From positions 1 through 64,000 of the forward strand of contig NZ_JACJRV010000004.1 in the NCBI RefSeq assembly GCF_014697475.1: a stretch of DNA of 64,000 nt. The letters are read 5' to 3'. Below, one piece after another: positions 6,632-14,508 of this stretch (within the stretch, counting starts at the first letter, position 1; each line of letters opens with the position of its first letter). Made by a program: the position numbers and the translations under genes. The notes under the pieces are model-generated. The model did no database searches and was not told the origin of the DNA. It saw only the letters and a list, made by a program, of their open reading frames with translations. The DNA comes from Nostoc sp. FACHB-152 (GTDB lineage Bacteria; Cyanobacteriota; Cyanobacteriia; Cyanobacteriales; Nostocaceae).

Positions 6632-7114
6632 ATGTCAGCAAAAGATTTAGGGAAACCGCGTCCCTTATGGCGTGTAATCTTCTTGTCTGTAATTACAGGT
6701 ATGCTGTATTACGGCTGGTATAAATGGATTATTCAAGAAGAATTACGTCGTTATAAAGGTTTCGGTTGGTCAGGAACGCTGTGTTTAGCACCGTTTGTTT
6801 TCGGAGTAGCAATTCCCCAAGCTTTACGAATATTTGATCCTGATGTACCTGGATGGTTTGGTTGGTTTTCGCTGTTGGGTATTATTTGGATTTATATTGT
6901 TCAGTTTAAGCTATATAAGACTGTGAATGAATTGTACCGCCAAGCAGGTTTAAAAGAACCATTAGTAGTTTGGTGGCTATTTATCCCCGGATTAAATTTA
7001 ATTGTTGGTTTACGACAAATCCATTTTTTAAGCCAGTTTTGGGCAAAACAACAAGGAGTTAGCGTTTCAGATTATATAGCTGAAAATATTCCTTTACTCT
7101 CGGCTAATGCTTAA
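6632..7114 (+). CDS. DUF4234-like membrane protein
   Basis: 160 residues with about four hydrophobic segments: FLSVITGMLYYGWYKWI, TLCLAPFVFGVAI, WFSLLGIIWIYIVQF and VWWLFIPGLNLIVGL. The opening PLWRVIFLSVITGMLYYGWYK and the late IHFLSQFWAKQQG resemble DUF4234-type small membrane proteins, whose function is unknown. It lies downstream of hemJ in the same orientation, which could mean co-transcription, though a 70-bp gap with a short hairpin-like sequence separates them. Confidence 0.7.
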   Translation: MSAKDLGKPRPLWRVIFLSVITGMLYYGWYKWIIQEELRRYKGFGWSGTLCLAPFVFGVAIPQALRIFDPDVPGWFGWFSLLGIIWIYIVQFKLYKTVNELYRQAGLKEPLVVWWLFIPGLNLIVGLRQIHFLSQFWAKQQGVSVSDYIAENIPLLSANA

Positions 7115-7211
7115 TAAGTTTAGGAATTGAAAAACTTAATTTTGTCAGGTGCGTTCAACTTTGTTAGCGCACCTCTGCTTTATTTAAAGTAGCAAAGGAG
7201 ATAATCGCCGA

Positions 7212-8075
7212 ATGCAAATTCAGCAGTTATTTAGCGATCGCGTGGGCGTAATTGCGACAATGCATCAAAAAGAAAAGGTAATTGCGCCATTATTAGAGAA
7301 TGAATTAAATATTAAAACTATAGTACCAGCTAATTTTAATACTGATGCTTTTGGTACATTTACAAGAGAAGTAAAACGTCCTGGTAATCAAATGGAAGCT
7401 GCTAAACTAAAAGCAGAAGCAGCCTTAAAAATAACTGGTGAAACTTTAGCGATCGCTAGTGAAGGTAGTTTTGTACCTCATCCTCTTGTACCATATATTT
7501 ACTCTAATCGAGAAATCGTTATTTTCTTAGATAAAGAAAATAAAATAGAAATTATTGGCGAAGAATTTTCAATAGAAACAAACTTTAATCATCAGATAGT
7601 TGAAAATATTCAAGAAGCCTACGATTTTGCTAAAAAAGTTGGTTTCCCTGAACACGGTCTAGTAATTTACTGGGAAGATGCCGCTAAAAATAGCCTTGAG
7701 ATAATTAAAGGAATTACGACAGAAGCAAAACTGCAAGAAACTATTAACACAGCATTTAAAAATGCTGTAGACGGTAAAGTTAACTTAGAAACAGATATGC
7801 GGGCGCATCATAACCCAACCCGCATGAAGAATATTGAAAAAGCCACATTAGATTTAATCAAAAAAATTAAAAGCTTATGCCCACAATGTTCTGCACCTGG
7901 TTTTGCTATAACTGAGAGAACAGCAGGATTGCCCTGTGAAATGTGTGCTATGCCAACTAATTTGACACTTGCAGTCATTTATCAGTGTCAAAAATGTGGT
8001 TTCAAGCAAGAAAAGTTATTTCCCAATGGCAGAGAATTTGCTGATCCAGCACAATGTATGTACTGTAATCCTTAA
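7212..8075 (+). CDS. DUF6671 family protein with C-terminal zinc-ribbon cysteines
   Basis: 287 residues. The first about 200 match the pattern of DUF6671 proteins (DRVGVIATMHQKEKVIAPLL, GTFTREVKRPGNQMEAAKLK, IASEGSFVPHP, DMRAHHNPTRMKNI), which are widespread but of unknown function. The C-terminal 60 residues contain cysteine pairs CPQC, CEMC, CQKC and CMYC, consistent with two zinc-binding ribbons. There is no signal peptide or membrane segment. A strong AAAGGAG ribosome site lies 10 bases before the ATG. The conserved His, Asn and Arg residues hint at an enzyme, but this is only inference. Confidence 0.82.
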   Translation: MQIQQLFSDRVGVIATMHQKEKVIAPLLENELNIKTIVPANFNTDAFGTFTREVKRPGNQMEAAKLKAEAALKITGETLAIASEGSFVPHPLVPYIYSNREIVIFLDKENKIEIIGEEFSIETNFNHQIVENIQEAYDFAKKVGFPEHGLVIYWEDAAKNSLEIIKGITTEAKLQETINTAFKNAVDGKVNLETDMRAHHNPTRMKNIEKATLDLIKKIKSLCPQCSAPGFAITERTAGLPCEMCAMPTNLTLAVIYQCQKCGFKQEKLFPNGREFADPAQCMYCNP

Positions 8076-8100
8076 GTGAAGAAGAGGCTAGAGGTTAGGC

Positions 8101-8222
8101 AATACGGTTCGGATAACCATTTTGAACTAAGAATTGGTTTGGGGAAAAGGTTAAAGGGTAAGGGTTAAAGGTTTTTTATTCGCCTTTTCCCCTTCGCCTT
8201 TCCCCTTTAACCGAACCGTATT
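8101..8222. mobile_element. MITE-like element with AATACGGTTCGG terminal inverted repeats
   Basis: 122-bp element bounded by AATACGGTTCGG (8101-8112) and its exact reverse complement CCGAACCGTATT (8211-8222). The interior is a purine-rich stretch (GGGGAAAAGGTTAAAGGG) followed by its pyrimidine-rich complement (CCCCTTCGCCTTTCCCC), so the whole can fold back. Flanks contain AGAGGTTA on both sides, a possible target duplication. A second copy with the same ends lies at 43827-44076. No coding capacity; any mobility would need a transposase in trans. Confidence 0.8.
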
Positions 8223-8270
8223 GAGAGGTTAAGGACTAGACTAGTGTTGTGTCTTCCCTTAATCTAGAAG

Positions 8271-8306
8271 AAAAAAGCCCCAGTACTTCTCAAAAGCAAA
8301 AGGGCT
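8271..8306 (-). terminator. Probable Rho-independent terminator of the 29-residue gene
   Basis: Read on the minus strand, AGCCC pairs with GGGCT across a 21-23 base loop and is followed directly by a run of six T. It lies about 110 bp after the stop of the small membrane-protein gene at 8416-8505 and in the matching orientation. Confidence 0.5.
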
Positions 8307-8415
8307 GACGGTATGGTGTAAGGAGCAAACTATTTGTTTACTTAACTATAGGTTAGCTAGGGAATGTGACAGTGCTATCACATTAGTATGAAAATTATGC
8401 GATCGCTAAAAATTA

Positions 8416-8505
8416 TTAGCTACGAGTAAAAAATACCGCAGCCAGCACGATTAACCCTAAAAGTGCCAAGGGAACCCAAAGATTAGGTACATCCGACAAA
8501 CTCAT
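8416..8505 (-). CDS. 29-residue single-span membrane protein
   Basis: Very short gene read from the sequence: the minus strand from 8505 gives M-S-L-S-D-V-P-N-L-W-V-P-L-A, then a hydrophobic helix (LLGLIVLAAVFF) ending T-R-S and stop. One membrane span preceded by a polar/Trp N-terminus and closed by Arg is the layout of the small subunits of cyanobacterial photosystems, cytochrome b6f and NDH-1 complexes, but I cannot match it to PsbM, PsbT, PsaM, PetL, PetN or another named one. A terminator-like hairpin lies downstream. It is divergent from the 840-residue gene at 8580. The function is inferred only from its layout. Confidence 0.6.
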   Translation of the reverse strand: MSLSDVPNLWVPLALLGLIVLAAVFFTRS

Positions 8506-8579
8506 CACTTAGTATTTTCGACATTCTGATCAGGGATAATTCAATTTATACAGCAAGCAGCCTGCATGGGAAACCCACA

Positions 8580-11102
8580 ATGGCATCACCAGAAACAGTC
8601 ATTTGGCTACAAGAACGTACAACTTTAGGAATTCTCTCAGATGCGGCGTTAAATGCGATCGCCCAAGCCCTGGAAGAACGAGTTGTACCACAAGGTCGTA
8701 ACTTAGTCAGCGCAGGTACTCCCCCAGAAGCCGTTTACATCCTCAAAGACGGGCAAATTGAAAGCGAAACCAGCAATAAAAATAACTTTACCCCCGCCTG
8801 TGGTTTTCTTCCAGGGGCAGTAATTAACCTCAAAGAACTGTTATTAGATGAATTAACACTATCTACAATCATTGCCCTTTCGGAATGTCATGTATGGGCT
8901 ATTCCGGCTGCGGAATTTCGCACCATAGCAACCCAATACCCAGAAATTACTCAAGCATTATCTCGCTCTTTAGCCCAAGAATTAGCGCAAGTCACATCAG
9001 CCTTAACCTACGAACAAGAACGTTCTGTCGCCTTGCGTCCCTATTTAGTGACCAAAGCCCAACGAGGTATTGTTGGTAGCAGCCGCTATGCAGTACGTTT
9101 ACGCGAACAAATACGCGAAGCCGCAGCTGACAGCAAATCAGTAGAAATCTTTGGTGAACCAGGCTTGGAAAAGGACAATATTGCAGCTTTGATTCACTAT
9201 GGTTCACCCAAACGGCGAGAACCCATTATTAAAATCAATTGTGGCATTCTGCAAACTAGCGGTATAGACCTATTTGGTCGTGCAGGCGGCAAACCTGGTC
9301 TTTTGGAATGGTTGGGAGAAGGCACTTTAGTACTCAACAACATTCAAGAATTGCCTCCAGAATTATTACCAGCAATGGTACAGTTAATCAAAACAGGTAC
9401 TTACAGCCCGGTAACTCGTGCTGGAGAAGCCACAGCCGCACCCCGCCCCAGCCAAGCCAGGATTTTGATTATTTCCGAAAAAACTGAGTCCAAAATTGAA
9501 CGCTGTGTAGGCCGTTTGATTAAAGTACCACCAGTGCGCGTGCGGAAGACTGATATCAAAGCACAGGTAGAATATTACACCAGTCTTTATGTGCGATCGC
9601 GAGGTTTGCCGAAACCTCATGTTACCCCAGAAGCCTTACGCCGCTTGCAGTCCTATGACTTTCCTGGCAATCTCAAGGAATTAAAAAATTTAGTGGAACG
9701 GGCAATTGTTCAAGCAGGAGAAAGGCAAGAACTAACAGAAGAAATCTTTTGGTCAGCCCAACCCAAGAAAAAAGAATTTCGCGTTAATTTGTTAAATGTC
9801 TATCCTGGGTTGCGGAAGTTCTTACGGAGTGACTGGTGGCCAGACCGCATTAACTATGGCTTTACTGTGGTAGTTTTTCCGATCATCATTGCTGTGTTAT
9901 TTGTGGGGCCGCAAACACGCGATCGCAATTTCGCTTTAAATTTATTTTGGGCTTGGTGGTGGCCGTTCTTCCTATTTCTGTTTCCGTTTTTAGGTCGTGT
10001 GTGGTGTGCCGTTTGTCCGTTCATGATTTACGGCGAAATTACCCAAAAATTATCTTTATGGCTAATTCCGCGCCAACTCAAACGCTGGCCTAGAGAGAAA
10101 GCCGAAAAATGGGGTGGATGGTTTGTGTTTGGCTTATTTACTCTAATTTTTCTTTGGGAAGAACTCTGGCACTTAGAAAATACAGCTTACCTGTCTGCCT
10201 GTTTGCTGTTATTAATTACCGCCGGCGCAATGATTTTCTCCGCCATATTTGAACGGCGGTTTTGGTGTCGCTATCTCTGTCCTATTGGCGGGATGAATGG
10301 TTTATTTGCCAAACTCTCCATGACAGAACTACGCGCACAACAAGGGATTTGTTCGGCTACCTGTACTACTTATCAGTGTTACAAAGGCGGGCCGCAAAAA
10401 GGCGAAGGCATGGAAACCAATGGCTGTCCGTTATATTCTCATCCCGCCCAGCTAGAAGATAACAGAGATTGCGTCTTGTGCATGACTTGTTTAAAAGCCT
10501 GTCCCCATCGTTCCGTTGAGTTTAACTTGCGTCCCCCTGGCATTGAACTATGGACGACTCATCTACCTCGCCAGTATGAAGTAGCATTATTATTTTTACT
10601 TTTAGGTGGTATATATCTGCATCGTTTGCCAGAATTGCAATCATCGTTGGGTTTGCATCTAGATTTAACCCAGTTTTGGCAACATTTAGGCTTATCATTA
10701 GCAGTCTTAATTTTCCCAGTTGCTGTAACTTGGGCAGCATATGGCTTGATACAGCTATTTAATCAACGCAAGCCTAAACCATTCATAGAACTTGCTTATG
10801 GTTACTTACCACTGGTGTTAGGAGGTAACTTAGCCCACTACCTACGTTTAGGTTTAGGAGAAGGCGGGCGAATTTTACCTGTGACTGTGGCAACTTTTGG
10901 GTTGAATAATGAAAATTTACCAATTCTGGTAGCACATCCAGCAGTTATTGCTTTTTTGCAAGGTTCTATTTTAATTTTTTCAGTATTTTTAACAATAGTA
11001 TTAACGCAAAAAATAGCAAGACAACTACTGCGATCGCTCATTTGGCAACACTTAGCAACTATTGCCCTGGCAGCTAGTATGTGGAGACTGATAGTGTCTT
11101 AG
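8580..11102 (+). CDS. Crp-like / degenerate sigma-54 AAA / NapH-like 4Fe-4S membrane fusion protein
   Basis: 840-residue multidomain protein. Residues about 10-150 resemble a cyclic-nucleotide-binding/Crp beta-barrel (VPQGRNLVSAGTPPEAVYIL). Residues about 165-400 are an AAA domain of the sigma-54-activator type, ending with the lid pattern YDFPGNLKELKNLVERAI. Its motifs are decayed: Walker A reads GEPGLEKD (about 191-198), the GAFTGA loop is replaced by AGGKPG, and Walker B Asp-Glu is Asn-Asn (about 252). Residues about 425-600 are membrane helices with two CxxxCP motifs (WCAVCPF near 475; WCRYLCPIGG), as in NapH/NosR. A ferredoxin-type CVLCMTCLKACP cluster lies near 629, followed by more helices. 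A membrane redox sensor or electron-transfer protein is likely; transcription activation through sigma-54 is not. Confidence 0.85.
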   Translation: MASPETVIWLQERTTLGILSDAALNAIAQALEERVVPQGRNLVSAGTPPEAVYILKDGQIESETSNKNNFTPACGFLPGAVINLKELLLDELTLSTIIALSECHVWAIPAAEFRTIATQYPEITQALSRSLAQELAQVTSALTYEQERSVALRPYLVTKAQRGIVGSSRYAVRLREQIREAAADSKSVEIFGEPGLEKDNIAALIHYGSPKRREPIIKINCGILQTSGIDLFGRAGGKPGLLEWLGEGTLVLNNIQELPPELLPAMVQLIKTGTYSPVTRAGEATAAPRPSQARILIISEKTESKIERCVGRLIKVPPVRVRKTDIKAQVEYYTSLYVRSRGLPKPHVTPEALRRLQSYDFPGNLKELKNLVERAIVQAGERQELTEEIFWSAQPKKKEFRVNLLNVYPGLRKFLRSDWWPDRINYGFTVVVFPIIIAVLFVGPQTRDRNFALNLFWAWWWPFFLFLFPFLGRVWCAVCPFMIYGEITQKLSLWLIPRQLKRWPREKAEKWGGWFVFGLFTLIFLWEELWHLENTAYLSACLLLLITAGAMIFSAIFERRFWCRYLCPIGGMNGLFAKLSMTELRAQQGICSATCTTYQCYKGGPQKGEGMETNGCPLYSHPAQLEDNRDCVLCMTCLKACPHRSVEFNLRPPGIELWTTHLPRQYEVALLFLLLGGIYLHRLPELQSSLGLHLDLTQFWQHLGLSLAVLIFPVAVTWAAYGLIQLFNQRKPKPFIELAYGYLPLVLGGNLAHYLRLGLGEGGRILPVTVATFGLNNENLPILVAHPAVIAFLQGSILIFSVFLTIVLTQKIARQLLRSLIWQHLATIALAASMWRLIVS

Positions 11103-11154
11103 TTAAATAACTGCCTTCATGCATTTGATATGCAAATTTTAAAATCTTCTGTTT

Positions 11155-11182
11155 AGTTCAAAGATTGGGTAAACTTTGAACT
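11155..11182. terminator. Hairpin after the fusion gene
   Basis: Perfect 9-bp arms AGTTCAAAG and CTTTGAACT around a 10-base loop, about 50 bp after the stop codon. There is no long T run, so a terminator role is only possible. Confidence 0.4.
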
Positions 11183-11266
11183 ATAGTTTCATTAATACTG
11201 ACTTTTTTGTTTATATTAGCACTCAGTACAGATGCTATTTAATTTACCCTAACCACTAAACTCTTT

Positions 11267-11977
11267 ATGATGTCAATACCTACTGTGAATTCTGAGGCAG
11301 GAGGTTATGTTGTCCATGACTTAGCTCATACAACTCATTGGAACATAGCTAACTCTTTACAACAGCCTTTGCACTGCTCAACCTCAAGTATCACAAAAAG
11401 ATTAATTGACATCATAGGAGCTATTGTTGGTTTAGTTATTACAGCTATATTGCTAATTCCTATAGCCATAGCCACCAAAATTCATAGCCCAGGCCCAGTA
11501 TTCTATTCCCAAATTCGCTGCGGTACAAACGGACAAACTTTCCGCATCTGGAAGTTCCGTTCGATGGTAGTTGATGCGGAAAAACTCAAGCATTTAGTAA
11601 AAAATCAAGCCAATGGTCACATTTTTAAATCTAATGATGACCCTCGCATTACACCTATTGGTAAATTTTTGCGTCGCACCAGCTTAGATGAGTTTCCCCA
11701 GTTTTGGAATGTGCTAATGGGGGACATGAGCTTAGTTGGTACTCGTCCACCCACCCCTGATGAAGTCATGAACTATGCACCCCATCATTGGGAGAGATTA
11801 AGAGTCAAGCCAGGTATGACTGGAGAATGGCAAGTTAATGGTCGTTCCAGTATCAAAGATTTTGAAACCATCGTCAAAATGGATATTGACTATCAACGTA
11901 AATGGTCTGTAGTTTATGACCTAAAGCTCATATTTAAAACAATCTGGGTGGTCTTTAACAAAAGTGGTGCTTGTTAG
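11267..11977 (+). CDS. Polyprenyl-phosphate sugar phosphotransferase (bacterial sugar transferase family)
   Basis: 236-residue member of the WcaJ/RfbP C-terminal family that starts exopolysaccharide repeat units by moving a sugar-1-phosphate to undecaprenyl phosphate at the inner membrane. After about 35 variable residues comes KRLIDIIGAIVGLVITA, a re-entrant/transmembrane helix, then WKFRSMVVDAE and RRTSLDEFPQFWNVLMGDMS with LVGTRPPT, all family signatures, and a C-terminal RVKPGMTGEWQVNGRS. It is a short form without the N-terminal multi-span domain. ATG at 11267 or 11270. It opens the polysaccharide region and has a paralogue at 16283. Confidence 0.92.
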   Translation: MMSIPTVNSEAGGYVVHDLAHTTHWNIANSLQQPLHCSTSSITKRLIDIIGAIVGLVITAILLIPIAIATKIHSPGPVFYSQIRCGTNGQTFRIWKFRSMVVDAEKLKHLVKNQANGHIFKSNDDPRITPIGKFLRRTSLDEFPQFWNVLMGDMSLVGTRPPTPDEVMNYAPHHWERLRVKPGMTGEWQVNGRSSIKDFETIVKMDIDYQRKWSVVYDLKLIFKTIWVVFNKSGAC

Positions 11978-11983
11978 TCGAAA

Positions 11984-12823
11984 TTAACCTTTAACACCAC
12001 TACCAGTGTCAGTTGGGACAATATAGCGTTGTACAAATAGAAATAATATTAGGACTGGAGCGATAGAAATAATCGAACCCGCAGCCACCAACCGCCAGTC
12101 TAGAGAAAACGTACCTGCTAATTTTGCAACTCCCAAAGGTAAGGTATAAAGTTTTTCGTCTTGGATGACAATCAAAGGCCAAAGAAAATCACTCCAAGAA
12201 CCAATAAATACAAAAATTGCCAGCGTAACTAATGCAGGACGGATAGCTGGTAACATAATCAACCACCACAAGCCTATTTCTGAACTACCATCCATCCGGG
12301 CGGCTTCTTCGATTTCTTTTGGCACACCCATAAAAGCTTGCCGCAGCAAAAAAATGCCAAAAGCAGAAGCTAAACTAGGAAACATCATTCCCCAATAAGT
12401 GTTTACTAAGCCTAGCTGCACTGTCAAAATGTATAGAGGAATCATGACAATCTGAAAGGGAATCATGATTGTCGAGACGATCGCAACAAAAATCCAGTCT
12501 CTTCCCGGAAATGAAAGTCTAGCTAACGGGTAAGCAGCTAAAGCACAAAATAGTAGATTCAAGCCAACAGTCAGCACAGAAACCAAGGTGCTGTTATATA
12601 AATACTGGGCAAAAGGCAGAGATTGCCAAACACTAGAAAAATTATTAAGTGTAGGTTGGCTGGGTAGTAGCTGCGGTGGCGACTGCAAAATATTTTCAGT
12701 TGGTGATTTCAACGCTGTACTAATTAACCACAGCAGAGGAAACAGCGTTAATAATGCGATCGCTCCTAGTAAACCATAGGTTATTAAAATTTGCCAGCGT
12801 GAGTTTTTTATCTTTAGTTTCAT
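11984..12823 (-). CDS. Carbohydrate ABC transporter permease (MalG family)
   Basis: 279 residues with six membrane helices, the size of MalG/UgpE-type inner-membrane permeases. The EAA loop that docks the ATPase is clear: EEAARMDGSSEIGLWWLIML. N-terminal pattern LLWLISTALKSPTENI and the C-terminal QRYIVPTDTGSGVKG are typical of the sugar permease subunit transcribed last in such operons. No binding protein, partner permease or ATPase is adjacent, so it would work with subunits encoded elsewhere. It ends 7 bp from the convergent sugar transferase gene. Confidence 0.92.
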   Translation of the reverse strand: MKLKIKNSRWQILITYGLLGAIALLTLFPLLWLISTALKSPTENILQSPPQLLPSQPTLNNFSSVWQSLPFAQYLYNSTLVSVLTVGLNLLFCALAAYPLARLSFPGRDWIFVAIVSTIMIPFQIVMIPLYILTVQLGLVNTYWGMMFPSLASAFGIFLLRQAFMGVPKEIEEAARMDGSSEIGLWWLIMLPAIRPALVTLAIFVFIGSWSDFLWPLIVIQDEKLYTLPLGVAKLAGTFSLDWRLVAAGSIISIAPVLILFLFVQRYIVPTDTGSGVKG

Positions 12824-12907
12824 AAAATTTACCTTATCTCTTGTATTGATAGGCTTTTGAATTATCTAACTCGGTAAAGCCCATCTCTACCTACAACAAA
12901 GTTTATT

Positions 12908-13483
12908 CTAAGGATAAATAACGAATTTAGTTTCTGTAACAATTGCTTGTAAAGGTTTATCCCAATTTTCTACTGGTAATTGAGGTAAGTAAGCAAAATC
13001 AAAAACTATACCTACTGTTGGTTTATTTGCCCATTCTGGAGAACCCAGTAAGCGGTCATAATATCCACCTCCGTAACCTAGGCGATAACCTTGGCGATCG
13101 CAAGCGACACTAGGCACAAGAATTAAATCTACTTCACTAGGATTTATGATTGGGGCATTGGGATACGGTTCGCTAATCCCATACTTGTTAATCTGCACAG
13201 AATCTTCAGGTGTCCAAATATGCCAAGATAGGGAATTACCAATGCAGCGCGGAAATCCCCATTTATATTTAATATCTGCAAATAAAGGACTTAAATCTGG
13301 TTCTTGACGAAAGCTAAAATAAGTGAGTATTGTCTTTGCTTCAGTATAGAGAATAAAACTTTGTAGTGTTGTGCAAATGCGATCGCTTTTTTCTCTCCAC
13401 TCTTCAACGGACATCAATTGCCGTTTTTTTAGTAATGTGCGGCGTAATTTTATTTTATCTAGTTGAATATCAACTGTATTCAT
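12908..13483 (-). CDS. 5-formyltetrahydrofolate cyclo-ligase
   Basis: 191-residue enzyme converting 5-formyl-THF to 5,10-methenyl-THF with ATP, a folate salvage step in the cytosol. N-terminal KIKLRRTLLKKRQLM matches the family start, and the signature RQGYRLGYGGGYYDRLL with the Gly-rich nucleotide/folate loop is complete. IVFDFAYLPQLPVENWD is the usual end region. Length is normal. Transcribed in the same direction as the ABC permease 84 bp downstream, which is probably incidental. Confidence 0.93.
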   Translation of the reverse strand: MNTVDIQLDKIKLRRTLLKKRQLMSVEEWREKSDRICTTLQSFILYTEAKTILTYFSFRQEPDLSPLFADIKYKWGFPRCIGNSLSWHIWTPEDSVQINKYGISEPYPNAPIINPSEVDLILVPSVACDRQGYRLGYGGGYYDRLLGSPEWANKPTVGIVFDFAYLPQLPVENWDKPLQAIVTETKFVIYP

Positions 13484-13506
13484 GCAGAAAATTTACCCAT
13501 AAAAAT

Positions 13507-13537
13507 TGTAGAGACGTTTCATTGAAACGTCTCTACA
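13507..13537. repeat. Perfect palindromic repeat (TGTAGAGACG type)
   Basis: 31-bp hairpin: TGTAGAGACGTTTCA faces TGAAACGTCTCTACA with one central base. It sits between the folate gene and fcl. A diverged copy occurs at 33697-33725. This is a dispersed cyanobacterial repeat rather than a gene-specific site. Confidence 0.85.
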
Positions 13538-13563
13538 GAACGGTAAAGTCTACTCTACAGTAA

Positions 13564-14508
13564 TTAAGCGGCGTTTTGACGATACCAATCAATGGTATTC
13601 TTTAGCCCTTCTTTAAAGCCAACTTGAGCCGTGAAATCAAATGCTTGTTTGGCGCGTTCAGTATCCAAACATCTCCGAGGTTGACCATTGGGTTTGTCTG
13701 TTTCCCAAACTATTTCACCGTCAAATTCCATCAGTTCGGCAATTAAATTTACCAAATCACGAATAGAAATTTCATAGCCAGTGCCTAAGTTAACTGGTTC
13801 AGATTCATTGTAAAATTGAGTACCCATAACAATTCCCCGCGCTGCATCTTCAGAATAGAGAAACTCGCGGGTAGGACTACCATCACCCCAAACTGGTAGT
13901 TGTTTTTCTTTCTTAACTTGGGCTTCGTGGACTTTGCGAATTAATGCCGGAATTACATGGGAACTGCTGGGGTCGAAGTTATCTTCTGGCCCGTATAAAT
14001 TTACTGGCAGTAGATAAATACCATTAAAACCGTATTGTTGGCGGTAAGATTGCAACTGAACTAACAGTGCTTTCTTTGCCACACCATAGGGTGCGTTGGT
14101 TTCTTCTGGGTAGCCATTCCAAAGGTCATCTTCTTTAAATGGCACGGGAGTAAATTTAGGATAGGCACAGATTGTACCCACACAGACAAATTTTTCTACT
14201 CCAGCTTGATGGGCAGCATGAATTAGCTGGGTTCCCATAATTAAGTTGTCGTAGAATAACTCTGCTGGCTTTTCGCGGTTGAGACCAATCCCACCGACGT
14301 GAGCCGCTAGATGAATAATTATGTCTTGTTGGTCAACTGCACGTTGACAGTTTTCCCAAACACGGATGTCGCATTCACGCGATCGCGGTACTGTAATTTT
14401 TGCACTATCAGCCCCAGCTTTACACAGCTGATCTATTACCTGACGACCTAGGAATCCTGCCCCACCTGTGACGAGAATCCTTTTGTTTTTCAGTTCTAAG
14501 GCGGTCAT
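13564..14508 (-). CDS. fcl: GDP-L-fucose synthase
   Basis: Bifunctional 3,5-epimerase/4-reductase that converts GDP-4-keto-6-deoxymannose to GDP-L-fucose. It is an extended [19 protein letters not shown] near the N-terminus binds NADP, and [10 protein letters not shown] gives the catalytic Tyr-x3-Lys. [20 protein letters not shown] and [13 protein letters not shown] are typical of WcaG/Fcl. I place the start at the ATG at 14508 (314 residues) because GAGGA lies 8-10 bases upstream; a longer frame would overlap gmd. It lies 25 bp after gmd and is surely co-transcribed with it. Confidence 0.93.

Follow-up and report, generated by a model that had tools for sequence, protein, structure and literature searches.

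An 840-residue cyanobacterial protein joins a sigma-54-activator-type AAA domain to a predicted NapH/NosR-like Fe-S membrane module

The window analyzed here is the whole stretch of 64,000 nucleotides of Nostoc sp. FACHB-152 DNA. The open reading frame at positions 8580 to 11102 of its plus strand translates into 840 residues with zero internal stops. The features of this gene and its upstream region are listed below, with the source of each assignment in parentheses.

8416..8505, minus strand: divergent micro-ORF of 29 aa with one hydrophobic helix, a recurrent neighbor (upstream alignment and profile search)
8526..8579, plus strand: proximal upstream stretch, GGGATAATTC...TTATAC, conserved among 11 aligned sequences (alignment)
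8580..11102, plus strand: whole gene, 840 aa, window type "g1" (ORF and homologue search)
8679..8936, plus strand: Crp-like (cNMP_binding) barrel, residues 34-119, accessory, phosphate-cassette Arg unconserved (Pfam and alignment)
9069..9743, plus strand: sigma-54-activator-type AAA core and lid, residues 164-388 (Pfam, PDB profile match and fold match)
9153..9176, plus strand: Walker A GEPGLEKD, residues 192-199, with Lys198 retained in 83/83 (alignment)
9276..9302, plus strand: site of the GAFTGA loop deletion, residues 233-241 (alignment)
9336..9341, plus strand: Walker B position, Asn253-Asn254 (alignment)
9834..10247, plus strand: predicted membrane helices 1-4 (NapH/NosR-like module), residues 419-556 (NCBIfam similarity and predicted model)
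10005..10019, plus strand: CX2CP motif, residues 476-480, C476-A-V-C479-P (alignment)
10266..10283, plus strand: CX3CP motif, residues 563-568, C563...C567-P (alignment)
10350..10427, plus strand: first Fe-S motif, C591/C595/C600/C616, CX3CX4CX15CP (alignment)
10470..10502, plus strand: second Fe-S motif, CX2CX2CX3C, residues 631-641 (alignment)
10572..11093, plus strand: predicted membrane helices 5-9, residues 665-838 (predicted model)

Pfam matches above their cut-offs were obtained for cNMP_binding (residues 34-119), Sigma54_activat (164-281), AAA_lid_14 (320-388) and Fer4_5, and NapH-like similarity extends over residues 467-649, at 49.2 bits well below the NCBIfam cut-off of 213.05 for NapH/MauN (TIGR02163). 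These matches bear out the original prediction that an N-terminal Crp-like barrel, a sigma-54-type AAA domain and a NapH-like Fe-S membrane module lie in one protein, and CVLCMTCLKACP, which had been placed in the membrane part, is indeed found there. Plus-strand genes near the 840-aa gene include those for a HemJ protein and a DUF6671 protein. To the eye, the conserved stretch at 8526..8579 appears promoter-like. With a pattern that we take to describe NtcA-type sites, none was found at 6713-13809, and hence none upstream of the gene (17 in the window versus 11.6 expected). A tRNA scan of the window returned none.

The host genome gave one match when searched with the 840-aa protein, and the family to which this protein belongs is spread through the window's class of cyanobacteria. 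Matches at an E value of ≤0.001 were found in 187 of 386 genomes of the phylum; 106 of these 187 have strong matches (E ≤ 1e-80, table counted by hand), every one in the window's own class, and the remainder are weak and partial. From a second collection, the best 80 of 464 confirmed relatives were used, the closest among these 80 being a Nostoc protein with 90% identity. The alignment of 83 sequences, counted after two fragments of L086 and two of L087 had been removed, comprises 64 sequences of the window type (g1), 8 of a paralogue clade (g2) and 11 small-genome relatives (g3). In a quick tree, 24 of whose 80 inner branches are weak, g2 and g3 each form one side of a branch with an SH-aLRT value of 100. 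The gene tree mostly follows taxon groups, which is consistent with long retention. Many genomes of the class lack the family (all sampled genomes of genus groups g5 and g34, for example), broken copies occur in two genomes (G251 and G336), and one genome (G060) carries two g1 copies. Because the same architecture is present in many genomes and genus groups of the class, the fusion is explained neither by chance nor by an error of assembly, and the latter origin is excluded. Our search of the open-licence PMC literature found no description of the architecture.

The AAA head was compared with six AAA modules taken from three further genomes of the phylum; each of the six has a full-length loop, although its letters are not always exactly GAFTGA. 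Walker A had been regarded as lost, but the P-loop Lys198 is retained in 83/83 sequences (64/64 g1, 8/8 g2 and 11/11 g3), and in a larger g2 set the GxGK[TS] pattern is present in 28/28; what has changed is the third P-loop Gly, which is Glu in 49/64 g1 sequences and Gly in 10/64 g1 and 8/8 g2 sequences. As originally read, the window protein has Asn in place of both Walker B acids. The Asp is replaced by Asn in 62/64 g1 sequences and retained in 6/8 g2 and 7/11 g3 sequences (10 of the 20 pattern-readable sequences among the 28 of the larger g2 set), and the Glu is found in 0/83. The GAFTGA loop is not replaced by AGGKPG, as had been proposed, but deleted: the segment measures 7-8 residues in 64/64 g1, 7-9 in g2 and 2-10 in g3 sequences versus 15-16 in the six full-length-loop modules. 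It is shortened in 82/83, the exception being a g2 sequence (L062) with 15 residues of unrelated letters, and GAFT occurs in 0/28 of the larger g2 set. Also deleted is the FREDLYYRL-type stretch, which presumably carries the role of the arginine fingers. Motif loss is therefore uniform for the Walker B Glu and nearly so for GAFTGA, but does not extend to Lys198, and in none of the 83 homologues are Walker A, Walker B and GAFTGA all intact. Since Lys198 has been kept and the Walker B Glu, GAFTGA and arginine-finger stretch have been lost, the AAA head looks like a domain that may bind nucleotide but cannot hydrolyze it. The term "decayed" used for it earlier does not fit the median omega of 0.110 (56 codon-aligned sequences), by which the domain is under purifying selection and conserved rather than decaying.

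A partner sigma factor is likewise missing. In line with the original prediction, the sigma-54 DNA-binding domain (PF04552) had no match in the host genome, and across 373 genomes of the phylum 10 match at an E value of ≤0.001, 2 of them over the cut-off. A survey reports that sigma-54 and its activators are absent from all 29 cyanobacteria covered (PMC3162934). The best match in the host genome to the sigma-54 activator model is the 840-aa protein itself. No C-terminal HTH or other DNA-binding domain was found in it by Pfam scan, and predicted membrane helices occupy the usual place of the HTH. The AAA part does match the structures of NtrC1, NtrX and VpsR, and all 50 listed Foldseek matches of the full model are AAA. 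The 840-aa protein is nevertheless probably not a sigma-54 activator, as most of the features that define membership in that group are missing from it.

In the membrane part, 12 Cys residues (476, 479, 563, 567, 591, 595, 600, 616, 631, 634, 637 and 641) are invariant in 83/83 sequences and in 56/56 of those codon-aligned. The two CxxxCP motifs described earlier prove to be one CX2CP (C476/C479) and one CX3CP (C563/C567), each invariant in 83/83. Two four-Cys motifs, also invariant in 83/83, are predicted to form two [4Fe-4S] sites; the first, C591/C595/C600/C616, has an unusual spacing and was absent from the original prediction. The full-length predicted model has a pLDDT of 71.6, and nine membrane helices were read from it; when the membrane part was modeled alone, the pLDDT was 69, with values below 50 in the Fe-S part, and Foldseek returned no PDB fold match for this model at an E value of ≤0.001. 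Cytosolic loops contain 15 Lys and Arg per 76 residues and outer loops 5 per 64, with helix boundaries drawn manually on the model and the Fe-S loop counted at 15 residues per end only. This charge bias would make the N terminus, the two Cys-Pro motifs and the Fe-S part cytosolic. Codons were compared across 56 sequences, with 259 to 510 of 1,540 pairs usable per domain, and the median omega values were 0.236 for the Crp-like part, 0.110 for the AAA domain, 0.067 for the linker and helices 1-4, 0.022 for the Fe-S part and 0.126 for helices 5-9.

The Crp-like barrel is an accessory, optional part, because it is missing in 16/83 sequences, as judged by filled alignment columns, and lacks a conserved cassette Arg. 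tblastn detected no remnant of it in 16 loci (including L063 and excluding L065), and L063 may be a seventeenth sequence without the barrel. Across 21 homologues inspected, no Arg is conserved at the ligand (phosphate) cassette, with the CRP motif as reference.

A search for a conserved gene neighbor had been proposed as a check on the protein. No specific g1 neighbor of at least 60 aa is common to several orders; the most frequent neighbors, confined to Nostocales, occur at 26/94 and 25/94 loci, and one broad PAS/response-regulator-like cluster is found in all groups except the outgroup. Alignment of upstream DNA identified the divergent 29-aa micro-ORF at 8416-8505 on the minus strand, whose start lies 74 bp before the 840-aa gene. 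By profile, its relatives occur near 70/144 g1 loci (a set that includes the window's own locus, L001, and at least 7 genomes counted twice, e.g., L009/L097, L010/L119 and L006/L115), in 70/70 cases on the opposite strand and in 47 within 600 bp, versus 0/28 g2, 0/12 g3 and 0/5 outgroup loci. Variability at the three codon positions (0.148/0.044/0.408 in 62 distinct sequences) and a pooled pN/pS of 0.23 (607 pairs) are as expected for a coding gene. Three members were compared with Pfam, which gave no match, and with NCBIfam, where no family exceeded its cut-off. The presence of a gene for a 29-residue, one-helix microprotein near window-type loci is a new observation.

Among 80 whole genomes, the micro-ORF was found in 15/30 with g1, 1/8 with g3 (G258, with an E value of 0.009, at chance level), 0/4 with only g2 and 0/38 with none, giving 15/30 with g1 versus 0/42 with neither g1 nor g3; since related genomes are not independent, p-values from Fisher tests on such loci and genomes are too small. 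The two Synechocystis genomes G070 and G087 are among the 15 g1 genomes without it. Each of the two g1 copies in G060 has its own micro-ORF, and in five genomes (G011, G027, G054, G179 and G014) it lies away from the g1 gene, in the first four next to ORFs that by eye resemble lapA and scpA (the match in G179 is weak, with an E value of 3.5e-5). Within the host's family, 8/10 genomes with g1 and 0/11 without g1 harbor the micro-ORF, a pattern that could reflect loss of both in one linked deletion.

The paralogue clade has a different neighborhood. A cysteine synthase gene follows g2 on the same strand at 18/28 loci (20 of 30 found loci and 8 earlier ones); the gap is ≤39 bp in 10 of these 18, and in the remaining 8 the two genes are farther apart or separated by small ORFs. 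Cysteine synthase matches within 6 kb occur at 18/28 g2 versus 4/144 g1 loci, and, as the g2 flanks are longer (mean of 11.5 versus 9.1 kb), the comparison with the 86 longer g1 loci is 18/28 versus 4/86. For all 30 g2 loci with short flanks, some ending at contig ends, the count is 19/30. Neighbor families, cysteine synthase included, were identified from one representative each checked against Pfam and NCBIfam. Also commoner near g2 than near g1 are rhodanese (5/28 versus 0/144), PsbA (5/28 versus 1/144), cytochrome bd (4/28 versus 0/144), Rieske PetC (3/28 versus 0/144), heme oxygenase (3/28 versus 0/144) and oxygen-independent HemN (3/28 versus 1/144), with p-values that overstate the case because several related g2 loci share these neighbors. 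Such neighbors suggest that the setting of g2 is low in oxygen or sulfidic. Together with the frequent position of g2 ahead of a cysteine synthase gene, they would point to cysteine/sulfide or low-oxygen physiology, at least for that branch. Tracking of cytochrome bd (19/42 genomes with versus 15/38 without) or NiFe hydrogenase (24/42 versus 23/38) by presence of the gene was rejected by Fisher test; the lists of genomes were hand-built, the counts were read from tables, and a few genus and family groups (g5, g34, g43 and f25) supply most of the genomes without the window type.

A named orthologue probably exists in Synechocystis. DNA of plasmid pSYSM of Synechocystis PCC 6803 matches G070 and G087 with 94% identity over about 730 bases and G386 weakly; with matches in 3/5 of its genomes, we took this genus group to be Synechocystis. 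The gene order in G070 is leuD, pyrG, the family gene, desaturase-like, pdxH, scpA-like and ffh (desaturase and scpA being tentative names), and in G087 an ffh motif lies within the same 20 kb as the family gene. The locus between leuD/pyrG and pdxH/ffh in Synechocystis is, we presume, slr1529, annotated ntrX, which is therefore probably the orthologue of the 840-aa protein.

We consider, with a probability of about 0.5, that the protein is a NapH/NosR-like quinone/Fe-S membrane redox protein with a non-hydrolyzing AAA head and not a sigma-54 activator. This reading is based on the 12 invariant Cys, the lowest omega in the Fe-S region (0.022), the positive-inside charges and the NapH-like similarity; on the absence of a DNA-binding domain and of a host sigma-54 match, with no Walker B Glu in the family and a shortened GAFTGA; on the microprotein near 70/144 g1 loci and the succession of g2 and cysteine synthase at 18/28; and on NosR and PceC, which share the module and were likewise taken for transcriptional regulators at first (PMC5928378). 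The same results (Walker B Glu in 0/83, GAFTGA shortened in 82/83, no host sigma-54, invariant Fe-S Cys) uphold the original idea that an AAA scaffold without ATPase activity is joined to a module for electron transfer. In keeping with proposals for NapH/NosR, electrons would pass through the membrane module between the plastoquinone pool and a pair of [4Fe-4S] clusters. The AAA head would bind nucleotide or a partner without hydrolysis and pass on the redox state by docking or by a change of conformation, or act in the opposite direction, and the microprotein might be a small membrane subunit or an inhibitor. Several observations weigh against this reading: the NapH score is far under its cut-off, the membrane model is weak and has no fold match, no specific g1 neighbor of at least 60 aa spans the orders, neither cytochrome bd nor NiFe hydrogenase tracks the family, the cysteine synthase link belongs to the paralogue g2 and not to the window type, and the microprotein is missing in 15/30 g1 genomes and unlinked in five.

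A possible, though doubtful, alternative is that the protein is a redox enzyme first, its membrane module serving as an electron carrier (ferredoxin-plastoquinone, or a metal reductase like CcoG) and its AAA and Crp-like parts only for assembly or docking. The constraint is strongest on the Fe-S and membrane parts (omega of 0.022 and 0.067), and the Crp-like part is absent from 16/83 sequences; however, an AAA omega of 0.11 reflects more constraint than a passive spacer needs, and no conserved enzyme gene lies beside the window type. The response of the probable orthologue slr1529 to metals fits this alternative: the five values tabulated for it under iron deprivation in PMC3516471 are all negative, from -0.07 to -1.17, and its ratio at 3 µM copper (high copper) is given as 0.29 in PMC4182526.

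A VpsR-like role, in which the protein would regulate transcription from the membrane together with sigma-70 and without ATPase activity, seems unlikely to us. In the PDB, VpsR gives the best match to the family profile (3.9e-32), and it comes 8th by fold among the matches listed, but the 840-aa protein has no HTH or other DNA-binding domain, membrane helices lie at the usual place of the HTH, and the arginine-finger stretch is deleted. Also in its favor, PMC5318462 reports that a knockout of slr1529, if rightly assigned as the orthologue, had almost unchanged growth on BG11; at 72 h, principal-component analysis put its metabolome with the six most shifted, although it is not in the top list by Euclidean distance. 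We give equally little credence to the protein as a nucleotide (ATP/ADP) gauge, in which the AAA head would bind and not hydrolyze ATP and the energy charge would gate the redox module. The retention of Lys198 in 83/83, the P-loop pattern in 28/28 g2 and the Walker B Asp in 6/8 g2 and 7/11 g3 sequences speak for it. In g1, however, Glu replaces the third P-loop Gly in 49/64 and Asn replaces the Asp in 62/64, so that binding there may be abolished, and of the 28 sequences in the larger g2 set, 20 were readable and just 10 of these retain the Asp. An evolutionary relic losing function would agree with the absences from the class (all sampled genomes of g5 and g34) and the broken copies in G251 and G336, but is highly improbable, being disfavored for the family by the apparent selection on the AAA and Fe-S parts (omega of 0.11 and 0.022 over 56 sequences) and by a gene tree that fits long retention.

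The family is present in many cyanobacteria, probably including Synechocystis PCC 6803, where it is labeled a nitrogen regulator. If the protein is indeed a quinone/Fe-S redox device, it would open an unexamined branch of membrane electron transfer and represent reuse of an ATPase fold where the partner sigma factor is missing. Its function can be tested through the adjoining microprotein and through the cysteine synthase gene that follows the paralogue. A further possibility, put forward tentatively, is that a stray sigma-54-activator AAA domain, kept by cyanobacteria without sigma-54, was rebuilt as a non-hydrolyzing switch on a plastoquinone-reading Fe-S membrane protein with a microprotein subunit of about 30 residues, forming an undescribed redox sensor, and that the paralogue couples the synthesis of cysteine to the redox state of the membrane where oxygen is low or conditions are sulfidic.

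Compared with known systems, the protein shares a part with each. With Crp/Fnr proteins it shares a cNMP-binding domain (PF00027 above the cut-off), whereas the family lacks the conserved cassette Arg and the HTH, and the barrel itself is absent in 16/83. With the sigma-54 activators (bEBPs) PspF, NtrC1 and NtrX it shares an AAA core and lid by sequence and fold, whereas it lacks the GAFTGA loop, the Walker B Glu, the arginine-finger stretch and the HTH, and its host genome has no sigma-54 match. VpsR, the closest PDB sequence match to the AAA part, and other atypical bEBPs presumably also have a degenerate activator AAA domain; VpsR is soluble, binds DNA and works with sigma-70 without ATPase activity, whereas the 840-aa protein is predicted to be membrane bound and has no recognizable DNA-binding domain. 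The published label of slr1529 (ntrX), "nitrogen assimilation regulatory protein," most likely derives from the disabled AAA domain, and none of our results favors a role as a nitrogen regulator. According to PMC5928378, NapH and NosR have four helices in common, along with a pair of CX3CP motifs and a pair of 4Fe-4S motifs; NapH has been suggested to oxidize quinol, and NosR, like its relative PceC, was initially described as a transcriptional regulator. In contrast to NapH and NosR, the first Cys-Pro motif of the 840-aa protein is CX2CP and not CX3CP, its first Fe-S motif is CX3CX4CX15CP, and it has five additional predicted C-terminal helices and N-terminal AAA and Crp-like parts; a Pfam scan found no FMN domain in it. 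The four helices with paired Cys-Pro motifs are common to the 840-aa protein, NapH, NosR and PceC, and the 840-aa protein shares with NapH and NosR, unlike PceC, the Fe-S motifs that follow these helices.

A microprotein gene repeatedly adjoins the window-type gene, which encodes the fusion of a Crp-like barrel, a sigma-54-activator-type AAA domain and an Fe-S membrane part, and this arrangement is found across several cyanobacterial families. In the window, the microprotein gene lies as follows.

8416-8505, (-) strand: microprotein gene, 29 aa, single helix

No family match was obtained for the microprotein when three members were compared with Pfam, and none was over a cut-off in NCBIfam. 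Microprotein genes distant from the AAA gene were also seen in four genomes from the same class as the window and from other orders (L238, L239, L241, and L242), flanked by a lapA-like ORF and an scpA-like ORF (names assigned by eye). Among the AAA genes, the copies at L086 (genome G251) and L087 (genome G336) look broken, each being split over two frames, as does that on G110:C175, with a stop within the match.

Elsewhere in the phylum, three genomes of one family, f37, harbor a protein with two sigma-54-activator AAA modules in tandem (L069, L070, and L071); yet none of the three is among the genomes that matched the sigma-54 DNA-binding domain when 373 genomes of the phylum were searched. 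A clear match to this domain (62 bits) is present in G119, a genome from the window's own family (G119:C1:411956-412339), and represents either contamination or a rare gain.

In the paralogue, the P-loop is intact (L208-L227, L056-L062, and L067), and at these loci a cysteine synthase gene often follows. Genes for rhodanese, PsbA, cytochrome bd, HemN, and heme oxygenase lie near some of them.
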